Assembly (NCBI RefSeq): GCF_008795985.1
Contig: NZ_VMHP01000002.1
Coordinates: 806,001 to 870,000 of the forward strand
Direction of reading: 5' to 3'
DNA from: Marinobacter halotolerans
GTDB taxonomy: Bacteria; Pseudomonadota; Gammaproteobacteria; Pseudomonadales; Oleiphilaceae
Length of the DNA stretch: 64,000 bases
A program made the translations under genes and the position numbers. The first letter of the stretch is position 1, and each line of letters opens with the position of its first letter. A model generated the notes under the pieces. That model was not told the DNA's origin, ran no database searches, and saw nothing but the letters and a program-made list of their open reading frames with translations. This document shows positions 4,941 to 13,736 of the stretch, piece after piece.

Positions 4941-4950
4941 AAAGCCGGGC

Positions 4951-4981
4951 AAAAAAAAGCCGATGCGTTGAGGGCATCGGC
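4951..4981 (-). terminator. hairpin with U-tract on the minus strand
   Basis: GCCGATGC (4959-4966) pairs perfectly with GCATCGGC (4974-4981) around a seven-base loop. The eight-base A run precedes the stem, so a Rho-independent terminator is formed only for transcripts running leftward; the plus-strand copy lacks a T run. It lies 18 bases after the VWA gene and may still mark or protect that mRNA's 3' end. Confidence 0.45.
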
Positions 4982-5256
4982 TAAGCTCGGCATATCAAAC
5001 GGGGTTGGTAAACCCTTCCCCGCACTCCTTACCCTGCAATTCCGAAGCCAGTAAATGAAACCTCATTTAAAACAGTGATCTGTCTCGGGATAGCCTGATT
5101 CTGCCGTTTTCGGGATCCTGTTTTCTGCCGGCGCATGTCAAATAATCCGACACCTTTGGATGCTCATTTGGTGATCTGGATACCGTTCTTGGCTGTTACC
5201 AAGTGTTACTCTCTCAGCGAATTCAGTTACAGAAGTTTGCAAGAGGCGTTTCGCTC
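4982..5256. other. non-coding leader region before the envelope-machine operon
   Basis: About 275 bases without a credible gene. It holds a perfect 7-4-7 inverted repeat (TAAATGA and TCATTTA, 5052-5069) and two close copies of TTCTGCCG (about 5099 and 5124). I found no convincing sigma-70 or sigma-54 promoter, although one must exist here for the nine-gene operon that follows. Confidence 0.4.
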
Positions 5257-5793
5257 ATGGTTGGCACCTATCAGGCAATCAGGAAATCTATTGGTGTGCT
5301 GGCACTCTGCCTTGTTCTTGCAACGGGGCAGGCAATGGCCGCCGGTGCCGGAGAGCTGGATCGCGAAATTGCACAGATCAAAGCCGATGTCGCTGCCCTC
5401 AGCCAGACGCTGTTCGATCTGGAGGAGTCTGTTCTCCATCCTGCCGATACCCAGGTTGCGGTTTTCCTTGCCATGAAAGACCGGGAAGGGCTGGCGCTGG
5501 ATGCGGTGGAACTCTACGTGGACGGCAGCCCGGTCTCCTCCCGTCTTTATACCGATCAGGAGCGGGAATCGCTCCGCCAGGGCAGCATCCAGCGACTGTA
5601 TATTGGCAATCTTCCCCATGGCAGCCACGAACTGAAAGCCGTGCTCACCGCTCGCTCTGCAAATGACCGTTTCATCCGCCGGGAAGTCCGCCACCAGTTC
5701 CGGAAGCGTCCGGGGGAGTCCCGTATCCAGATGACCCTGGATGCTGCTGCGCCGGATTATGAGCCTGTTGTTTCGTTCCAGGAATGGAAGTAA
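5257..5793 (+). CDS. exported protein of unknown function, first gene of envelope operon
   Basis: From the ATG at 5257 the product is 178 residues with a textbook signal peptide (basic start, hydrophobic core, cleavage near AMA). A short coiled-coil segment (LDREIAQIKADVAALSQTL) follows, then a beta-rich domain containing VELYVDGSPVSS and a basic C-terminal part. An earlier GTG at 5203 adds 18 residues that would spoil the signal peptide; an AAGAGG sequence precedes the ATG. I do not recognise the family. Its position as first gene of a TPR/ExbB/ExbD/TonB-like operon suggests a periplasmic or outer-membrane-facing component of that machine. Confidence 0.75.
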   Translation: MVGTYQAIRKSIGVLALCLVLATGQAMAAGAGELDREIAQIKADVAALSQTLFDLEESVLHPADTQVAVFLAMKDREGLALDAVELYVDGSPVSSRLYTDQERESLRQGSIQRLYIGNLPHGSHELKAVLTARSANDRFIRREVRHQFRKRPGESRIQMTLDAAAPDYEPVVSFQEWK

Positions 5794-5808
5794 GCCGGAG
5801 GCCTGGTT

Positions 5809-7455
5809 GTGATAGGAAGGATCCCTGACCTGAACGTCATTCGCTGCCTGGCACTGATGCTTTTTCTGAGCAGTGCAGAATCGGCAGTGGCTGCGACCGG
5901 CCACCCGGACCTGGATCTGGGCCTCGCCCGGTTTGCCCTGGACACCGGTGACTACGCCCGGGCCCTGCATTACACCCGCAATCCCGAAACCGAACATGAA
6001 ACCCTGATCCACGCCAGAGCTTTGCTCGAAACAGGCCGGAAAGACCATGCGATCGGGCTGCTGGAGCAGCTTACCGACGGCCAGTATTTCCGCGGCGAAG
6101 CGGCGCTTCTCAGATCAACTCTGCTGGACGGAAATAACGAAACGGCAACCCGATTGCTGGATCTGGCCGCGGAAAAGGGCCATGGCGAAACTCGGCAGCG
6201 GGCGCTTTACCGGCTGGCCGAGATCGAGCGCATACAGGGATGGCCGGAAAGGGCGGGGCAGATACTGGCATCCATGGATTCCGGTTACTGGGCGGCACTG
6301 GGCTATATGAATATCGCCGCAGACTACGGCAAGCAGGATACCAACCCGTCCCGTGCTTTTATTGCCCTGCGAGTGGCCATGGCGATGGCGGAAGAGGATC
6401 CGGACAAGGCCCGCGGTGAAGCCCTGAAGGCTGAAATGTTGGTGAGGGCCGGTCTGCTCGCGTATGAGAGCAAGGACTACGACAAGGCCATCAGCTTTCT
6501 GAAACAGGTGCCGCTGGACAGCTACAGCACGCCCCAGGCGCTGTATCTTCACGGTCTGGCACTGTCTGAAAGCGGGAAGTATCGCGATGCCATGCAGTCC
6601 TGGCATCGGGCGAAGAAATACCCGTTGGCGTTTCCGGGCGTTGCCGGCTCCTGGCTGGGTACCGGGCGCGGATACGATTTGGCGGGCTACCTTGGCCAGG
6701 CGGGAGAAGCCTACCTGTCGGCCAGCGCCACTTATGAGAGTGAACGGGTAACGCTGCGGGATCTGAATGATCTGATCCGGGAGAAGGGCGCCTACGAGGC
6801 GTTGGTGGACGACGCGGGACAGGAGTTGGGCCAGTGGTTTCTGGAGGATAGCCGCGCGCTGACCCAGCCCCGCAATGCGTACCTTCTGAGATTCATGGAG
6901 GATGCACAGGCGCAGCACGCCGTTCAGCGTGTCCATGAGCTACGGGAAATGCTTCGCCGGATGGATGACCAGGCGCGCACGCTCAAAGTGTTTCGAGATG
7001 TGTTGCAGGACCGGATGGGGAGTTCCGCAAGCCCGTCGGCGGCGCTTCCCGCTGGTTTCAAAGACACAATAGCCAGCCTCAATGAGCGCATCAGCCGGCT
7101 ACGTCAGTCGGTTCCTGACGAATCTGCCAATGCCGCGGAACTCCAGCAACTCTCGGCAACCCTGAAGGATCTTCAGACATCCGCGGATCGGCTCGATCAA
7201 CGCCTCCAGAACCGTGATCAAAGGCTTGATGCGCAACTGGACGTTGTTAACCAGTCCCTGAACAGGCTGGCGCAGAATCGTAAGCGTGCCAGTGATGCGC
7301 TGGGCGGCGCCAGCGCCCTGCTGGACGAGCGTGTTCTTGCCTATCTGGCAGGAGAGCGCCAGCGCATGGTGGCATCGTTGGAGAAAGCCGAGCAGCAGAT
7401 TGCCCATCTTTACGAATATCTTGCCCTGCAGAATCTTGATCGGAGCTCGCCATGA
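5809..7455 (+). CDS. exported TPR and coiled-coil protein of envelope machine
   Basis: The 548-residue product begins at a GTG with a CGGAGG Shine-Dalgarno and carries a signal peptide ending near AVAA. The N-terminal two thirds contain repeated helical pairs typical of tetratricopeptide repeats (LARFALDTGDYARALHY, ALYLHGLALSESGKYRDAM, LLAYESKDYDKAISFLKQV). The last 150 residues are a long coiled coil rich in Gln, Arg and Leu. TPR proteins serve as scaffolds, here probably in the periplasm. The stop codon overlaps the next start (ATGA). It could correspond to one of the periplasmic TPR components of Glt-type systems, but I cannot assign orthology. Confidence 0.8.
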   Translation: MIGRIPDLNVIRCLALMLFLSSAESAVAATGHPDLDLGLARFALDTGDYARALHYTRNPETEHETLIHARALLETGRKDHAIGLLEQLTDGQYFRGEAALLRSTLLDGNNETATRLLDLAAEKGHGETRQRALYRLAEIERIQGWPERAGQILASMDSGYWAALGYMNIAADYGKQDTNPSRAFIALRVAMAMAEEDPDKARGEALKAEMLVRAGLLAYESKDYDKAISFLKQVPLDSYSTPQALYLHGLALSESGKYRDAMQSWHRAKKYPLAFPGVAGSWLGTGRGYDLAGYLGQAGEAYLSASATYESERVTLRDLNDLIREKGAYEALVDDAGQELGQWFLEDSRALTQPRNAYLLRFMEDAQAQHAVQRVHELREMLRRMDDQARTLKVFRDVLQDRMGSSASPSAALPAGFKDTIASLNERISRLRQSVPDESANAAELQQLSATLKDLQTSADRLDQRLQNRDQRLDAQLDVVNQSLNRLAQNRKRASDALGGASALLDERVLAYLAGERQRMVASLEKAEQQIAHLYEYLALQNLDRSSP

Positions 7456-10313
7456 TCCGCTTTGGTCACCACTCGCTGCACCGTGTTTTTGGGCTTTCTC
7501 TGGCCATCCTCTTTGCGGGTGTCGCCTCTGCGCAGGAGAGCTTCCGCGTCGAGCTGGGGCGTGATGGTGAAACTATTGGCGATATGCGCCCGGTGTTCCT
7601 CGAGTTCAAAACCCAGCCGATGCCAGCTATCTCGCCGGTAGAGGTCGCCAGGCGGTACCAGAAGCTGTTTGATAACTCCGAGGAACCGGAAGTGCGGGTC
7701 GACGCCCTGGCCCGGCTGTCCAATATCCAGCGGCTGACGGACAAGGACATCAGCGTGAGCCCGGAGGAAGAGCAGCGGATCTACCGCGAGGCGCTTTCCA
7801 GCTACGAAGCGGTGCTCAACAAAGGCTCCTTCCACGGCAAGCTGGACGAGTTGCTTTACCAGATGGCCAAGGCCCACGCGTTTGTTGGCCAGATTGAGCT
7901 ATCAACGGATCGTCTCGAGCAGCTGGTGGGTCTCTATCCCAGTTCGGAACTGGTGCCTGAGGCGCGTTTCAGAATTGCCGAGCGGGCGTTTGCTACCGGA
8001 AATTATTCAGAAGCCGAGGCGCAATATACCAGGCTGATTTCCGGCGAAGGGCGGGACTCGCTGAAGACCAAGGCCCGTTACATGTTGGGCTGGAGCCAGT
8101 ACAAACAGGGTCAGAGCGCCTGGCCGCGGGCGGCTCGGTCATTCATGACGGTGCTGGGCGGTTTCAGTGACCAGACGCAACAGTTCACCCGGGTACCGTC
8201 CGCGGACGCCGGCCTGATCGACGACACCTTCCGCATCATTGCCTTGATGGCGGCCGAAGCCGATGGCGTTGCCTCGATCAATGACTGGTCGTCGGCGACC
8301 GGCGACACCAGCCAATTCAGCGATCTGCTTTATGACCGGCTGGCGGATCTTTACGCCACCCGTGGTGACTATGCCCGCAGCGTCGACGTCAACTACGCCT
8401 TTATTGCCGATCATGGAGACCACCCCCGGGCGCCGGCATTCTATGCCCAGGCGGTCGAGGTCTGGCGCATGGCTGGCCGCGCGGACAGAATCCGTGATGT
8501 GCGCGCCGACTATGTGGCGGCGTTCAGCCCGTCCAATCGGTACCAGAGGCTTTCGGTTGCAGATCAGCAACGGTGGGTCGACTTTTCCAGAAGGCTGGCC
8601 GATTACCACTATGACCAGGGGGAAAGCGCCACTGGCAGCGCCCGAATTAACCATTTCACGGCGGCCGCGGAATATTATGACCAGCTTGCCCCCCGGAAGG
8701 TGGACGCCGGCGAAGTTCTTCGCCTGGCTGGGGATGCCTGGCTGCAGGCCGGACAGTACGCGGCTGCACGAGTCGCTTTCAGAAAAGCCGCCTATCAGGC
8801 TCCCGGATATGCAGACGCGGCAGACGCCGGCTGGGCAGCGCTGGTTCTTGAGCGAGAGGCCCTGGACGGTGAAAACCGGCTCGACGTCTCCCTTGCACAG
8901 TTCGCCGATGAGGCCGAAAAGTGGGCGGCTACCTTCCCTGCTGATGCACGGACACCGCAGCTGAGCTCTGATCTTGCCAACCGCCTGCTGGAGCAGGATC
9001 AGTTTGTACGGGCAAGGCAGTTCGCCCAGGCGGCTATCGACCACTCCACCTCGACCGCCGCCGCAAGCTTCAGCGCCTATCTTGCACTGGGCGAAACCCA
9101 TGTTGCCGAGCAATCCTTTGGCCTGGCGGAAAACGCCTGGCGCAAGGCCCTGGGCATGATTGCGACCGGCGATGTCTCGGAAGTCAGCACCGACGAAGCC
9201 AGCACACTGCGCAGACAGCTGGCCACCAGCATCTACCGCCAGGGCGAACAGGCCGCGGAAGCGGGCAAAACGGATGCAGCGGTTGCCCATTTCCAACGCA
9301 TCGACACAGTTCTGCCGGGGTCTGATATTGCCATCAAGGGTCGCTATGACGCCGCCAATACTTTGTTGAAAGCCAAGCGCTGGCTGACCGCCGTCAACGA
9401 ACTGACCCGTTTCCGACAGGATTTCCCCAATCACCCCCTCACAGGGATGGTCAGCGAGAAACTGGTGTTCGCCTATCTGTCGTCGGATCGTCCGATACAG
9501 GCGGCGGATGAGCTGATGACCGCCCGTGAGGGTGTAGCGCCCGCCATGGAAACCCAGCTGAGGGCGGCCGAGCTCTACCACCAGGCGGGAGCCACCGGCC
9601 AGCGCAACGAGATCTATCAGGCCTATCTGGGGCAGGGCGACGCCGCAGTGGCGCCGACAGATGCTGATACCCACGTCCTCAACCAGACGATTCGTCAGCG
9701 CCTTGTTGAATCCGCTATTTCTGTCACTCGTCTGCGCGAGCAAATGGTGTCTGCGGAGCTGGACAGTGAGTGGCATTCCGAACAGACACTGGACTGGGCA
9801 GGGCAGGCCGCCATTGCTCTGGCGGAAATTCCCGCCAACCGCTTCGCCGCAGTTGAACTTCGGGTGCCGCTAGCGGATTCCCTTGCCCGTAAGCAAAAGT
9901 TTCTTGAAGCCGCCCGTGTCCGTTACGACCAGGCCCAGCAGTTTGGTGGCGAAGCCGTCGTGTCCCAGGCCACTTATCGGAGGGCCGAGCTTTACCGTGT
10001 ATTGGCGAAGGATCTGATGGCGTCGCAGGCGCCACCGGAATTGAACGAAATGGAGGCCATGCAGTACCAGATGCTGCTGGAGGAAGAAGCCTACCCGTTT
10101 GAAGAAAAAGCCATCGCCCTGCACGAGAGCAATCATCAGCGCGTGGCCGAAGGCGTGTTCGACGAGTGGGTTCAGCAAAGCCTTGATGTACTGGCCACAC
10201 TCTTCCCCGGTCGTTATGAGCGCAAGGTTCGCTGGATGGGGCTGAATGCCGGCAATGTAACCGGCTATGAAACAGGCAATGAAACAGAGAGCAACTCCAA
10301 TGATGACGCGTAA
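7452..10313 (+). CDS. large exported TPR protein (GltD/AgmU-like in position and form)
   Basis: The 953-residue protein has a signal peptide (cleavage after ASA, about residue 27) and is built almost entirely from TPR-like helical repeats (ELLYQMAKAHAFVGQIELSTDRLEQLV; AEAQYTRLISGEGRDSLKTKARYMLGW; IKGRYDAANTLLKAKRWLTAVNEL). It therefore looks like a periplasmic scaffold or tether. It overlaps the preceding gene by four bases and the following TPR lipoprotein gene by 14. Myxobacterial gliding clusters contain comparably large periplasmic TPR proteins; resemblance there is by domain form and gene neighbours, not by a demonstrated alignment. Generic names such as YbgF-like tetratricopeptide protein would also fit. 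Confidence 0.82.
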   Translation: MIRFGHHSLHRVFGLSLAILFAGVASAQESFRVELGRDGETIGDMRPVFLEFKTQPMPAISPVEVARRYQKLFDNSEEPEVRVDALARLSNIQRLTDKDISVSPEEEQRIYREALSSYEAVLNKGSFHGKLDELLYQMAKAHAFVGQIELSTDRLEQLVGLYPSSELVPEARFRIAERAFATGNYSEAEAQYTRLISGEGRDSLKTKARYMLGWSQYKQGQSAWPRAARSFMTVLGGFSDQTQQFTRVPSADAGLIDDTFRIIALMAAEADGVASINDWSSATGDTSQFSDLLYDRLADLYATRGDYARSVDVNYAFIADHGDHPRAPAFYAQAVEVWRMAGRADRIRDVRADYVAAFSPSNRYQRLSVADQQRWVDFSRRLADYHYDQGESATGSARINHFTAAAEYYDQLAPRKVDAGEVLRLAGDAWLQAGQYAAARVAFRKAAYQAPGYADAADAGWAALVLEREALDGENRLDVSLAQFADEAEKWAATFPADARTPQLSSDLANRLLEQDQFVRARQFAQAAIDHSTSTAAASFSAYLALGETHVAEQSFGLAENAWRKALGMIATGDVSEVSTDEASTLRRQLATSIYRQGEQAAEAGKTDAAVAHFQRIDTVLPGSDIAIKGRYDAANTLLKAKRWLTAVNELTRFRQDFPNHPLTGMVSEKLVFAYLSSDRPIQAADELMTAREGVAPAMETQLRAAELYHQAGATGQRNEIYQAYLGQGDAAVAPTDADTHVLNQTIRQRLVESAISVTRLREQMVSAELDSEWHSEQTLDWAGQAAIALAEIPANRFAAVELRVPLADSLARKQKFLEAARVRYDQAQQFGGEAVVSQATYRRAELYRVLAKDLMASQAPPELNEMEAMQYQMLLEEEAYPFEEKAIALHESNHQRVAEGVFDEWVQQSLDVLATLFPGRYERKVRWMGLNAGNVTGYETGNETESNSNDDA

Positions 10314-10770
10314 TCTGATTCCTGTTTTCTTGTGCGTTTTATTTGCAGGCTGCGCCGCCAGTCCTTCGGGGCAAGAGCCAAAAATAAAAACGGAAGCCAC
10401 GAAGCAAGAGAAACGGGTAGCGATGCAGGAGGCCCGCCTGGCCATCACCGAACAGGACTGGAACAAGGCAATCGAGTCTTATCGGACGGTCCTGGAGCTT
10501 GATCCCCACGATGCAGTGGCGGTGAACAACCTGGCCCTGCTGCTTCGGGAAAAGGGCCGATTCCGCGAGGCGGCCACGCTGTTACAGGAAGGAATCGACT
10601 ATTCACCGCAAACACCGGATCTGCACTACAACCTTGCGGTTATTGCCGAGCTGTACCTGTTGGATCTTGAACTGGCACTGGCCCATTACCGCCGGTTCCG
10701 GGAACTGACGGAACAGGAAGGTCAGCTAGTCGCTGGTTGGATTGCAGACCTTGAAAGGAGGCTGGAATGA
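10300..10770 (+). CDS. TPR lipoprotein of envelope machine
   Basis: Starting at the ATG at 10300 the product is 156 residues with a lipobox LFAGC placing the lipidated cysteine at position 18. The following residues (AASPSG) lack an inner-membrane retention aspartate, so outer-membrane anchoring is expected. Two to three TPR units follow (WNKAIESYRTVLELDPHDAVAVNNLA; REAATLLQEGIDYSPQ; DLHYNLAVIAELYL). The longest frame starts at 10267 but that adds residues upstream of the signal peptide. Small TPR lipoproteins occur in both PilF-like pilotin families and Glt-type gliding systems (GltE/AglT); the neighbours favour the latter. Confidence 0.82.
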   Translation: MMTRNLIPVFLCVLFAGCAASPSGQEPKIKTEATKQEKRVAMQEARLAITEQDWNKAIESYRTVLELDPHDAVAVNNLALLLREKGRFREAATLLQEGIDYSPQTPDLHYNLAVIAELYLLDLELALAHYRRFRELTEQEGQLVAGWIADLERRLE

Positions 10771-11111
10771 GACTGGTTGAAAGGCTAGTGCTGCGCTGCC
10801 TGATCCCGGGTTTGTCGGCACTGGTGTTGAGTGCTGCCGCTTATGCCAGTGAATCCTCTGATGCCGGCTCTGCCATGGAAACCGTGGCTCTGAGCATTGA
10901 GGGCATCAGTTCTACCTCGAGTGAGGACAGCCCCGGTGTTGTCTATATTCTGCCCTGGCAACCGCCAACCCTGCCGAGGCGCACGCGTGATGCCCTGGAG
11001 GTGGATGCCCGGGGCCTGCGCGAGCCGATGGATCCGGTTGTTTTTGACCGGCATCAGGCCTTTCATCAATCACTGAATCCCTCTGCGGATTCCCCGAATT
11101 CCCCGCGTTAG
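10767..11111 (+). CDS. small exported protein of unknown function
   Basis: The 114-residue product starts in the stop codon of the TPR lipoprotein gene (ATGA) after a strong AAAGGAGG sequence. It has a signal peptide with likely cleavage after AYA near residue 26; the mature part is only about 88 residues, rich in Ser and Pro, with no recognisable domain. It lies between the TPR lipoprotein and the proton-channel genes, so it is probably a small periplasmic part of the same apparatus. No homologue comes to mind. Confidence 0.65.
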   Translation: MRLVERLVLRCLIPGLSALVLSAAAYASESSDAGSAMETVALSIEGISSTSSEDSPGVVYILPWQPPTLPRRTRDALEVDARGLREPMDPVVFDRHQAFHQSLNPSADSPNSPR

Positions 11112-11127
11112 CACCAGGAGTTTTGTC

Positions 11128-11772
11128 ATGCTGGAAACCGTTGCCCGTTTTTTTCAGGAAGGTGGCACCTTTATGTATCCCATCGCCGTGGTTCTTGCCA
11201 TTGGGCTGGCTATCACGCTGGAGCGATTCATCTATCTGTCGGGGGTGCGTCGCCGTAACCGGTTGGCGTTCGAGAAGGGCATCCTGCCGCTGTTGCGCAA
11301 GCGCGACTACCAGCGAGCGATGAAGGCGGCGAATGCCTCTGACAGTGCTATCGCGGAAATCATGAGCGCCGGTATTGGTCGGTTGTTGAACAACCACCGC
11401 CGGGAGGATGTTGAGTACGCCATGGAAGAGGGCCTGATGGAGGTATTGCCGCGGCTGGAAAAACGCACCCAGTACCTGTCAACGCTGGCCAACGTGGCAA
11501 CACTGCTGGGATTGCTTGGCACAATTATCGGCCTGATTGCCGCCTTTACGGCAGTTGCCGCTGCCGATCCGTCCCAGAAAGCCTCGCTGCTGTCGGAAAG
11601 TATTTCCGTGGCTATGAACACCACAGCTTTCGGGCTGATGTCTGCTATCCCGCTGTTGATGTTCCACGCCGTGCTTCAGACTCGCACCAATGAAATTGTC
11701 GACACCTTTGAAATGGCCGGCGTGAAGTTGCTGAACATCATTTCTGAAAAGCCGGAGCCGGCTGCTGCATGA
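11128..11772 (+). CDS. MotA/TolQ/ExbB family proton-channel subunit (AglR-like)
   Basis: The 214-residue inner-membrane protein shows the three-helix plan of the family: one helix at about 16-35, then a cytoplasmic stretch, then helices at about 105-135 (LANVATLLGLLGTIIGLIAAF) and 160-180 (TTAFGLMSAIPLLMF). The conserved channel motifs LLGLLGTIxG and AMNTTAFGL are intact. It forms a pentamer-like channel around two ExbD/TolR-type helices to harvest the proton gradient. The two downstream genes encode exactly such subunits and overlap it by four bases. ExbB, TolQ and AglR are all possible labels; the operon with two ExbD-like proteins favours an AglR-type role. Confidence 0.9.
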   Translation: MLETVARFFQEGGTFMYPIAVVLAIGLAITLERFIYLSGVRRRNRLAFEKGILPLLRKRDYQRAMKAANASDSAIAEIMSAGIGRLLNNHRREDVEYAMEEGLMEVLPRLEKRTQYLSTLANVATLLGLLGTIIGLIAAFTAVAAADPSQKASLLSESISVAMNTTAFGLMSAIPLLMFHAVLQTRTNEIVDTFEMAGVKLLNIISEKPEPAAA

Positions 11773-12284
11773 GACGCAAACACCGGAAGCTCACCTCCAG
11801 CGCGGATCTGGATATCACGCCCTTCATGAATCTGATGATTGTGCTGGTACCGGTTCTTCTGCTGGGCATGGTGTTCAGCCAGATCCGCATGATCGAGCTC
11901 AACTTTCCCGGTATGGAAGCCGGACAGGCGCCGGCCGCAGAGAAACTGCAACTGGCGGTTGTGTTGATCCCCCAGGGTATGGAGGTTGTTGATAGCGAGC
12001 GCGGTGTCATCCGCACACTGCCTCTGCTGGAGGGCGAACAGGACTTCGATGAGCTGAGGTTCACTCTCCAGCAGATCAAGAAGCGGGTGCCGGACAAGAC
12101 CGATATCGTATTGGAAGTCAGCCCGGACATTGACTACCAGACGCTGGTCAAAGCCATGGATACGGTGCGTTCCTACTCCACCGTGGTTGCAGCGAGCGTG
12201 GTGGAAGGTGAGCTGTTTCCGGATGTGTCCCTTGCGGATGCCGCTGAAGACCGGGTGCTGACAAGCGGGCAGGAGGGCGTATGA
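11769..12284 (+). CDS. ExbD/TolR-like subunit 1, Asn in place of the channel Asp
   Basis: The 171-residue protein has a short basic cytoplasmic start, one transmembrane helix (about 16-37) and a periplasmic domain, as in ExbD and TolR. The helix entry reads DLDITPFMNLMIVL. Aligned with the ExbD motif TPFIDVML, the proton-carrying aspartate is replaced by Asn21. The only nearby acidic residues, Asp13 and Asp15, lie before the helix. The second ExbD-like subunit just downstream keeps its aspartate, so this pair is asymmetric. Starts and stops overlap on both sides by four bases, and the family assignment is firm despite the substitution. Confidence 0.88.
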   Translation: MRRKHRKLTSSADLDITPFMNLMIVLVPVLLLGMVFSQIRMIELNFPGMEAGQAPAAEKLQLAVVLIPQGMEVVDSERGVIRTLPLLEGEQDFDELRFTLQQIKKRVPDKTDIVLEVSPDIDYQTLVKAMDTVRSYSTVVAASVVEGELFPDVSLADAAEDRVLTSGQEGV

Positions 12285-12796
12285 AGGAGTCACGCCGGGC
12301 ACACCGGATGCGTCGACACTATAAAAGAAACAGCCGGACCAACCGCGCCGGTGGCCTGAACCTGGTGTCGCTGATGGATATTTTCACCATTCTGGTGTTC
12401 TTCCTGATGGTCAATTCGTCAGACGTGAAGGTGATGCAGAACACCGCCGATGTGCCATTGCCCGAGTCCAGCGCTAAGAAGCAGGCGGATGAAACCCTGA
12501 TTGTTCAGGTGATTGGCTCCGCCATTCTGGTTCAGGGCCGGGAGGTGGCCCGGCTTAGCGGAATCGAGACCGGTGACCGCACCATCGGCGGGCTGGCCGA
12601 GGAGCTGGCCTATCGGCGGGAACAAGGCCTTCAGAACGGCCGTGTTGTGCCGGACGCCGGGCGGGAAGTCACCATCATGGCCGGCCGTGAAACCGATTAC
12701 CGGTTGCTGAGGAAGATTATGCAGACCTGTGTCGATGAGGATTACCGACAGGTGCGTCTGGCTGTCGAGTCGTCCGGGGAGGTGGCCAATGGCTGA
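12281..12796 (+). CDS. ExbD/TolR-like subunit 2 (AglS/AglQ-type)
   Basis: This 171-residue subunit has a strongly basic N-terminus, one membrane helix (about 30-46, SLMDIFTILVFFLMV) and a periplasmic domain. Asp33 occupies the proton-binding position seen in ExbD Asp25 and TolR Asp23. It forms a pair with the preceding subunit around the ExbB/TolQ-type channel. Two different ExbD-like proteins per channel gene are characteristic of Agl-type motors and are also seen in some Ton-like operons. Its start overlaps the previous stop, and its end overlaps the TonB-like gene by eight bases. Confidence 0.9.
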   Translation: MKESRRAHRMRRHYKRNSRTNRAGGLNLVSLMDIFTILVFFLMVNSSDVKVMQNTADVPLPESSAKKQADETLIVQVIGSAILVQGREVARLSGIETGDRTIGGLAEELAYRREQGLQNGRVVPDAGREVTIMAGRETDYRLLRKIMQTCVDEDYRQVRLAVESSGEVANG

Positions 12797-13736
12797 GGAA
12801 AAGCGTTTTCATCTGGCCCTGGCACTGATGTTTGTGGTGTTTTTGCCGCCCGCGCTGCTGATTCCCTCACTGAATCTGCCCGAGCCGGACCGGCGCGAAT
12901 CGGAGAAAATCCCGCCGCAGCTGGCCCGTCTGATCGAAGAAAAGAAGCCGCCTGAGCCCGTGGTCGCCCCAAAACCGGAGCCCGAGCCGGAACCAGAGCC
13001 CGAGCCCGAACCTGAAAAACAGAAACCGGAGCCGGTCGAGGAAAAGCCGGTGGAGGTTGCGAAAGCGCCCGAGCCCCCGGAACCCGAGCCCACGCCTGAG
13101 CCGGAGCCGAAAAAGCAGGCCCCGGCGCAGACTGTAGAGAAAGCCCGGGAGAAGGCGTCCCGTTCCGGTTTGCTGGCAATGAAGGACACTCTGGCCAGCA
13201 TGCGCGGCCCGGAGCCTACGAAGAAAAAAACGCTGAGTGCCAACACCGGTAGCGGGCAATCCCGCCCGGAGGAAAGCAGTGACATGGCCGAAAAGGCCCT
13301 GGCAGGCAGCGGTGGCGTTGAGGTAGAGCAGGGCATAACCCGTGACGTGGCTGTGGCGGATCACCAGGTGCGGGACGTCGAGGTAGCCGAAGAAAAGGTG
13401 GCTGCACCAGCTGAACCGAAACAGCAGGTAGCCGATGCAGGCCCCTCAACCCGGTCCATGAAGAATATCCGAAAGGTTTTCGACGCCAACAAGGCCGCCC
13501 TGAATGCCATGGTTGGACGGGAACAAAGGAAAGATCCGCTGCTTCACGGCAAGGTGCTTCTGAAACTGGTCATCGAGCCAGATGGGTCCGTTTCCAGCTG
13601 CAAGGTGATTGATTCCGAGCTGGATAATCCGAAACTGGAGCAGCGTATTGCCCTGCGGGTGAGAATGTTCAACTTTGGCGCCGCTGACGTTGAGCAGCGC
13701 GAGCTGAACTTTCCTTTGGATTTTCTGCCGGGCTGA
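12789..13736 (+). CDS. TonB-like energy transducer with AgmX/PglI (GltJ-type) C-terminal domain
   Basis: From the ATG at 12789 the protein is 315 residues: one N-terminal membrane helix (about 8-28), a long Pro/Glu/Lys stretch (about 48-130, including PEPEPEPEPEPEP) able to span the periplasm, a linker, and a C-terminal domain (about 225-315) with GKVLLKLVIEPDGSVSSCKV. That last motif is typical of the AgmX/PglI C-terminal domain of gliding-motility proteins, a relative of the TonB C-terminal fold. The frame is open to 12729 but the upstream part overlaps the previous gene and would displace the membrane anchor. It probably passes motor energy to an outer-membrane partner. Confidence 0.82.
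   Translation: MAEEKRFHLALALMFVVFLPPALLIPSLNLPEPDRRESEKIPPQLARLIEEKKPPEPVVAPKPEPEPEPEPEPEPEKQKPEPVEEKPVEVAKAPEPPEPEPTPEPEPKKQAPAQTVEKAREKASRSGLLAMKDTLASMRGPEPTKKKTLSANTGSGQSRPEESSDMAEKALAGSGGVEVEQGITRDVAVADHQVRDVEVAEEKVAAPAEPKQQVADAGPSTRSMKNIRKVFDANKAALNAMVGREQRKDPLLHGKVLLKLVIEPDGSVSSCKVIDSELDNPKLEQRIALRVRMFNFGAADVEQRELNFPLDFLPG

Follow-up and report, generated by a model that had tools for sequence, protein, structure and literature searches.

Our results indicate that nine genes of Marinobacter halotolerans, judged from their sequences, make up the gammaproteobacterial Agl-Glt core complex that was described by Luciano et al. in 2011 (PMC3169522). The genes lie on the + strand at 5257-13736 of a stretch of 64,000 nucleotides, hereafter the window (assembly GCF_008795985.1, contig NZ_VMHP01000002.1, 806,001-870,000 of the forward strand; genome of 3.78 Mb). 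We take the cluster, with a probability of roughly 0.78, for a stand-alone, dispensable and non-gliding member of the Agl-Glt family that would serve the energised movement of, or tension on, a component of the envelope. The predicted proton-powered envelope machine is genuinely related to the engine of myxobacterial gliding; without the usual outer-membrane parts of that engine and with a lopsided motor, it probably exerts its pull on a target other than the ground. The data establish the homology of seven genes (to AglR, AglQ, AglS, GltC, GltD, GltE and GltG), their order, and the presence or absence of the block at one site in Marinobacter. The kind to which the cluster belongs has been known since 2011, and in this respect it is ordinary; noteworthy are a lopsided motor, outer-membrane barrels beside sister copies, and the clean behaviour of the nine genes as a block.

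A preliminary description, made from the DNA letters alone, had reported nine same-strand, mostly overlapping genes, and the coordinates agree with it. From gene 1, which may start at 5203, to gene 9, the junctions are a 15-base gap, overlaps of 4, about 14 and 4 bases, a 16-base gap, and overlaps of 4, 4 and 8 bases, so that six of the eight overlap; the overlap between genes 3 and 4 is of about 14 bases with a lipoprotein ATG near 10300, and of 47 with a start at 10267. Searches of each protein against Pfam and NCBIfam bear out the domain types named in that description. TPR matches were found in gene 2 (5809..7455, +; exported, with coiled coil, 548 residues), gene 3 (7452..10313, +; exported, 953 residues) and gene 4 (10300..10770, +; a lipoprotein, its lipobox recognised by eye, with the longest open reading frame from 10267), the counterparts of GltC, GltD and GltE. 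Gene 6 (11128..11772, +) encodes an AglR-type motor channel of the MotA/TolQ/ExbB family (MotA_ExbB, 103.6 bits), and genes 7 (11769..12284, +) and 8 (12281..12796, +) encode ExbD subunits of the AglQ and AglS types (48.2 and 52.7 bits). Gene 9 (12789..13736, +; 315 residues) encodes a TonB-like transducer, the GltG counterpart but without FHA, which ends in an AgmX/PglI C-terminal domain, hereafter the tail (NF033768, 53.7 bits, above the cut-off of 40).

Kinship with the myxobacterial machines was examined with profiles built from the gammaproteobacterial loci. The Myxococcota genomes used, Myxococcus sp. CA023, Hyalangium versicolor and Sorangium cellulosum So ce26, were reached through MglA, and their agl, glt and nfs genes were named by position, order and length, with the gltBAC operon and protein sizes of PMC4488436 as a guide. 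A protein search aimed at Myxococcus AglR had yielded no myxobacterial name among the best 120 of 8000 matches. A record titled Comamonas sp. KCTC 72670 (L084) encodes an MglA with 99% identity to the Myxococcus protein, and is probably a mislabelled or contaminated assembly. On the Myxococcus sp. genome the motor profiles scored 173 bits (AglR), 78 bits (AglQ) and 102 bits (AglS), in the same order as in the window. The gene 2 profile reached 61 bits at the NfsC position and 41 bits at the GltC position of Myxococcus sp., and that of gene 3 reached 262 bits at the NfsD position of Myxococcus sp. and 206 bits at the GltD position of Hyalangium. Genes at the GltE/NfsE positions were matched by the gene 4 profile at 127-140 bits (nfs-type E of Myxococcus sp., 127; E of Hyalangium, 134), and the gene 9 profile matched the G gene of the nfs-type cluster in Myxococcus sp. 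(80 bits) and the G gene of Hyalangium (69 bits). In NCBIfam the E gene of the latter genome is named GltE (757 bits) and its G gene GltG (1072 bits). Comparison of profiles with hhalign gave probabilities of 98.4% (E 7e-15) for gene 2 with GltC, 100% (E 1.6e-59) for gene 3 with GltD, 99.5% for gene 4 with GltE and 99.3% for gene 9 with GltG.

In a tree of 54 AglR-related rows, from which the paralogues L003, L009 and L010 were left out, the window protein falls in a clade of 37 rows with AglR of Myxococcus and its relatives (support 100/99), and five paralogues from its own genome, TolQ included, lie outside this clade, where several rows were flagged as long branches. This placement bears on whether the cluster might be an energiser of the TonB2/TtpC type, devoted to the opening of TonB-dependent transporters. 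Such a system would have the same MotA_ExbB, ExbD and TonB-like parts, and TonB_C and tonB_Cterm do weakly match gene 9; however, the TonB C-terminal models stay below their cut-offs (17.9 against 24.6 bits; 19.5 against 27.1 bits) whereas the AgmX tail exceeds its own, and two unlike ExbD subunits together with three TPR proteins also speak against it. We consider this explanation highly improbable, in agreement with the earlier assignment to an Agl-Glt-like rather than a TonB2/TtpC-type system; neither of the two refuting conditions named with that assignment was borne out. A second Tol-Pal-like stabiliser of the envelope, in which TPR proteins would stand in for CpoB/TolB, is also very unlikely. 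Two matches point to it, that of gene 6 to tolQ, its best in NCBIfam (63.7 bits, below the cut-off of 221), and that of gene 3 to TPR models of YbgF/BamD; but the genome's own TolQ, which scores 300.9 bits on the tolQ model, lies outside the Agl clade, and no match to TolB or Pal was obtained with any of the nine.

A profile search of the whole genome returned 10 MotA_ExbB matches and two AgmX tails. The second tail belongs to a second nine-gene cluster (L013), which represents a sister copy type and in which all nine genes resemble those of the window in the same order; identity is 67, 51 and 49% for the motor genes and 27-36% for the others (gene 2 over 91 residues only). The conservation of gene order, which had been put forward as a check, was surveyed in 62 loci, namely the window, L013 and 60 further stretches, of which 40 came from a class sample of 274 gammaproteobacterial genomes and 20 from a genus sample of 100 Marinobacter genomes. 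These stretches were hand-picked from tail-bearing genomes, with strong matches and long contigs favoured, and a simple gene caller was used, by which short genes may be missed. All nine genes are contiguous and in order in 40 of the 62 loci (one has gene 3 in two pieces), which is far beyond chance. The remaining 22 comprise five loci with genes 6-9 only, four without a recognised gene 2, two without gene 1, six without a recognised gene 5, one without genes 4 and 5, one at a contig end, and three decayed or partial copies (L065, L069, L082). Only gene 9 is recognised in L065, and genes 5-8 are gone from L069; such decayed copies suggest that the cluster is dispensable.

The tail occurs in 83 of the 100 Marinobacter genomes, and exceeds the cut-off in 61 of the 274 class-sample genomes. 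In Marinobacter the copy type was told from the length of the tail match, which is consistent with the genes that flank the 20 loci of the genus sample, and a type could be assigned in 81 of the 83 genomes. One genome (G037) has three tail genes (C3:188991, C3:383177 and C7:172463), one per copy type by match length. Of the other 17 genomes, in which no tail match was found, two had low completeness and were set aside; the remaining 15 were searched for coxE, the neighbour of the cluster upstream of gene 1. It was present in all 15, with moxR adjoining, and in 14 a maoC-like gene and/or fadD starts within about 0.7 kb of coxE, the contig ending in the fifteenth. The maoC-like and fadD genes form the flank of the window cluster on the side opposite coxE. 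As the two flanks adjoin in 14 of the 15 genomes, the nine genes are gained or lost as one block, and this empty site seems to be new. CoxE and MoxR had also been candidates for parts of the machine, and were ruled out, given that both stay in all 15 tail-less genomes. Beside them the window encodes an exported VWA protein (1003-2781) with a TIGR03503-like stretch (85 bits against a cut-off of 305.6); the corresponding VWA gene is partly visible in three of the 15 tail-less stretches, and the others end before it. The spacer between coxE and gene 1 (4941..5256), with a hairpin at 4958-4982, is the likely left edge of the unit. Hairpins in the scan were no commoner than in shuffled sequence, the promoter scan gave one weak, intragenic site, fewer than in the shuffles, and terminator-like sites numbered 9 against 8.6 in the shuffles.

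With Asn instead of Asp in one of its two ExbD-type subunits, the motor is unusually lopsided. Gene 7 has Asn at the site of Myxococcus AglQ Asp28 (residue 28 also in the AglQ of the Myxococcus sp. examined) in all 59 gammaproteobacterial loci that hold the gene, with a Pro seven residues after the Asn in 57 of them, and gene 8 retains the membrane Asp in 58 of 58. Both genes occur together in 58 loci, 39 from the class-level and 19 from the genus-level sample, and gene 7 is missing from only three of the 62 loci (one at a contig end and two decayed). Outside the gammaproteobacteria, AglQ has Asp in 10 of 12 cases and Asn in two (Nannocystis and Enhygromyxa), with AglR in the Agl clade of the tree in 11 of the 12. 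In Myxococcus, the D28N change in AglQ reportedly abolishes proton conduction, motility and sporulation (PMC3858216); given this effect, a homodimer of gene 7 products would lack a proton site. According to a 2022 review (PMC9389320), it is an open question if AglQ and AglS each pair with themselves or with each other as a heterodimer. The retention of both genes in nearly every locus favours the heterodimer, and such a dimer would probably have one proton carrier per axle. The sections of PMC3169522 considered here, which do not include its gene diagrams (Figure S1), make no mention of Asn in AglQ, and the Asn/Asp split in gammaproteobacterial motors seems to be new.

In five loci (L025, L028, L033, L041 and L045), genes 6-9 stand alone after the type VI secretion genes TssK, TssL and TssM and a kinase/phosphatase pair. 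Pfam domains were assigned in L025 only, with which the other four cluster, and the four type VI-linked AglR proteins in the tree form one clade (support 100/98). We found no literature that links a motor of the genes 6-9 type to type VI secretion. We propose tentatively, and at somewhat less than even odds, that in gammaproteobacterial Agl motors AglQ, with its Asn, pairs obligatorily with AglS, with its Asp, which would leave each axle a single proton carrier and the ring half as many proton sites as in MotAB, TolQR or ExbBD, and that motor and transducer form a portable block, mounted here on a Glt TPR scaffold and in other bacteria on the type VI secretion membrane complex.

Several points weigh against this interpretation and that of the cluster as a whole. 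Asn is also found in AglQ of two myxobacteria, Nannocystis and Enhygromyxa, and AglQ has Asp in a Nitrospirae cluster with an AglR that falls inside the gammaproteobacterial clade; because of these cases Asn is no perfect marker and may be the derived or the ancestral state. The pairing of AglQ with AglS is one that we infer, and AglS homodimers, with AglQ in a structural role elsewhere, are possible. The likeness of gene 2 to GltC and of gene 4 to GltE leans partly on TPR repeats, which are prone to false matches; gene 2 also matches the GltE profile (97%) and gene 4 the GltC profile (96%). Finally, no experiment on, or phenotype of, such a cluster in a gammaproteobacterium was found in the literature.

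Sister copies differ from the window copy in their outer-membrane partners. A pair of barrel genes lies beside the cluster in 19 of the 62 loci, in 15 upstream and in four upstream on the opposite strand with a lipoprotein downstream. The order in the 15 is PD40/HZS-type lipoprotein, SH3-barrel, barrel, TlpA-like protein and DUF3570 barrel, in some with an extra gene between; domains of this module were scanned in L013 and L070, and the other loci were assigned by similarity. In L013 (312-6250), the second copy is preceded by a lipoprotein of the PD40/HZS-alpha type, in which CxxCH motifs were recognised by eye, and by two barrels, a TlpA-like gene and the DUF3570 barrel. The second barrel of L013 scores 150.5 bits on TIGR04565 (cut-off 60) and the first is weak (30.7 bits). 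This cut-off is also exceeded by four genes of Myxococcus sp. that occupy gltBAC and nfs positions (169, 121, 194 and 74 bits), and none of 14 control genomes matches. In profile comparison with myxobacterial barrels at the GltA/B and NfsA/B positions, the second barrel gave 99.1% (E 1.5e-18) and the first 96.2% (E 2e-9). No publication on TIGR04565 was found. In some genomes the module adds an ApbE-like gene and a tiny Cys-rich lipoprotein, both recognised by eye.

The barrels go with the tail across genomes. In the class sample, the tail exceeds its cut-off in 40 of 42 TIGR04565-positive genomes against 21 of the remaining 232 (p 4e-30 in Fisher's test, with kinship disregarded), and 21 of the 61 tail-bearing class genomes have no barrel over the cut-off. 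All 51 Marinobacter genomes with TIGR04565 above 100 bits have a sister-type copy; three of the 54 genomes with a sister copy lack such a match (one decayed copy and two incomplete genomes), as do all 27 with the window type only. Most Marinobacter, tail-bearing or not, also have a longer barrel with a weaker match (about 45-67 bits), which may be unrelated. The barrel cluster c2 stands beside none of 12 window-type loci, and the window copy is a barrel-less form. According to PMC3169522, gltA and gltB are limited to Myxococcales and Bdellovibrionales; as the sister copies carry barrels outside these limits, the known range of the GltA/B family is extended, and the occurrence of such barrels beside them seems to be new. 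Neither the lopsided motor nor the barrels of sister copies are mentioned in the parts of the literature considered here, the gene diagrams of PMC3169522 not included.

A further possibility is that the machine exports or assembles a polymer or protein at the surface, like the Agl-Nfs spore coat system, with DUF3570, PD40/HZS-type or DUF11 proteins as partners or substrates. It is compatible with the reading of the cluster as a non-gliding Agl-Glt machine, since it names an output. Agl-Nfs moves a surface polymer (PMC3858216), sister copies adjoin an outer-membrane and thioredoxin-like module, and in L059 the gene after gene 9 encodes a DUF11-repeat protein; the window copy, however, has no such neighbours, and its adjoining CoxE/MoxR genes persist where the cluster is absent. 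We regard this output as rather unlikely. The very large DUF11-repeat protein of L059 (14654-19900) comes directly after gene 9, and in L042 and L048 gene 9 is followed by giant genes that resemble each other. Near the second copy, at L013:17038-18906, lie a FilB-like C39 peptidase and a FilC-like outer-membrane protein, both below the model cut-offs. The preliminary description had named oil-droplet adhesion, export and surface organisation; these are guesses, and no result favours oil adhesion.

For the non-gliding Agl-Glt machine that we favour, the following mechanism may be envisaged. A ring of AglR would surround an axle in which a single AglQ-like helix is combined with a single AglS-like one, and would admit protons, with the carboxylate on AglS only giving one proton site per axle instead of two. 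Rotation of the axle would be passed to the TonB-like gene 9 product, tethered in the inner membrane, which would pull on the periplasmic TPR scaffold (genes 2 and 3) and the TPR lipoprotein (gene 4), reaching towards the outer membrane, with the products of genes 1 and 5 as possible adaptors. In sister copies the force might be handed to the GltA/B-type barrel pair; in the window copy type the far end may be missing, there may be an unlinked other partner, or the machine may act within the periplasm. Gene 9 has no FHA match in Pfam or NCBIfam, whereas Hyalangium GltG matches FHA models, and a genome-wide search made without a positive control gave no match to MglA. With no MglA found, and no barrel or FHA with the window copy, gliding is unlikely; the earlier term 'reduced' is thus apt for this copy type, and 'probably non-gliding' agrees with PMC3169522.

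The remaining features of the cluster concern its two extra genes and the N-terminal part of gene 9. Gene 1 (5257..5793, +) encodes an exported protein of 178 residues, its signal peptide recognised by eye, for which a structure model predicts a long helix followed by a transthyretin/Ig-like beta sandwich. It matches no Pfam or NCBIfam family, apart from a single chance-level match (E 0.14); its NCBI name, 'AraC family transcriptional regulator', clashes with the exported beta-sandwich model, and by profile comparison it matches neither GltF, GltH and CglC nor a barrel. Gene 5 (10767..11111, +) encodes an exported protein of small size in which the stretch ILPWQxPTLPRR is conserved; it has no Pfam or NCBIfam match and a structure model of low confidence. 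It was considered as GltF and rejected, as it shares only the position, and hhalign to GltF gives just 6.9%. Neither gene has a profile match in 14 myxobacterial stretches, to which the search was confined. An LPW motif before the membrane helix of gene 9 is present in 41 of 58 short gene 9 proteins and absent in the window (12789-12850), whereas L076, a close relative of the window gene 9, retains it. The conserved TonB/TolA-type His of the transducer helix, a motif taken from PMC12204202, was not seen on inspection of gene 9 N-terminal parts by eye. A Foldseek search gave one PDB match at E <0.001, and a search of a viral structure library returned nothing useful.

Several studies allow the cluster to be set among known systems. 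The core complex of PMC3169522 likewise has aglR, aglQ, aglS, gltC, gltD, gltE and gltG in one cluster, with one extra gene instead of the two in the window (genes 1 and 5). Motor, GltG-type transducer and GltC/D/E scaffold are shared with Agl-Glt of Myxococcus xanthus (PMC3169522; PMC4488436); in contrast, the nine genes include, by the comparisons made, no counterpart of GltA/B, GltH, GltI or GltK (the genome-wide search covered barrels and MglA), the window gene 9 has no FHA, and AglQ Asp28 is replaced by Asn. In the Agl-Nfs sporulation machine (PMC3858216), the comparable order is barrel, barrel, C, D, E, F, G in Myxococcus sp. (L209; names by position), but the nfs cluster has no motor genes and the window copy neither barrels nor NfsH. 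The vWA force transducers of PMC12204202 also combine a TPR gene with one TolQ-like and two TolR-like genes; theirs end in a vWA fold and that of the window in the AgmX/PglI domain.

The core complex was found duplicated in two Marinobacter, and its function in gammaproteobacteria was left open (PMC3169522); authors have also proposed that it is a possible basal transport machine (PMC3858216). The natural Asn in AglQ equals the D28N change of Myxococcus, so that the gammaproteobacterial motor would work with one site, or through AglS alone. A branch with one subunit that has no carrier and is nevertheless retained makes the question of homodimer or heterodimer simply testable, and a nine-gene block present in most, not all, Marinobacter may offer an easy model for the job of the ancestral engine.

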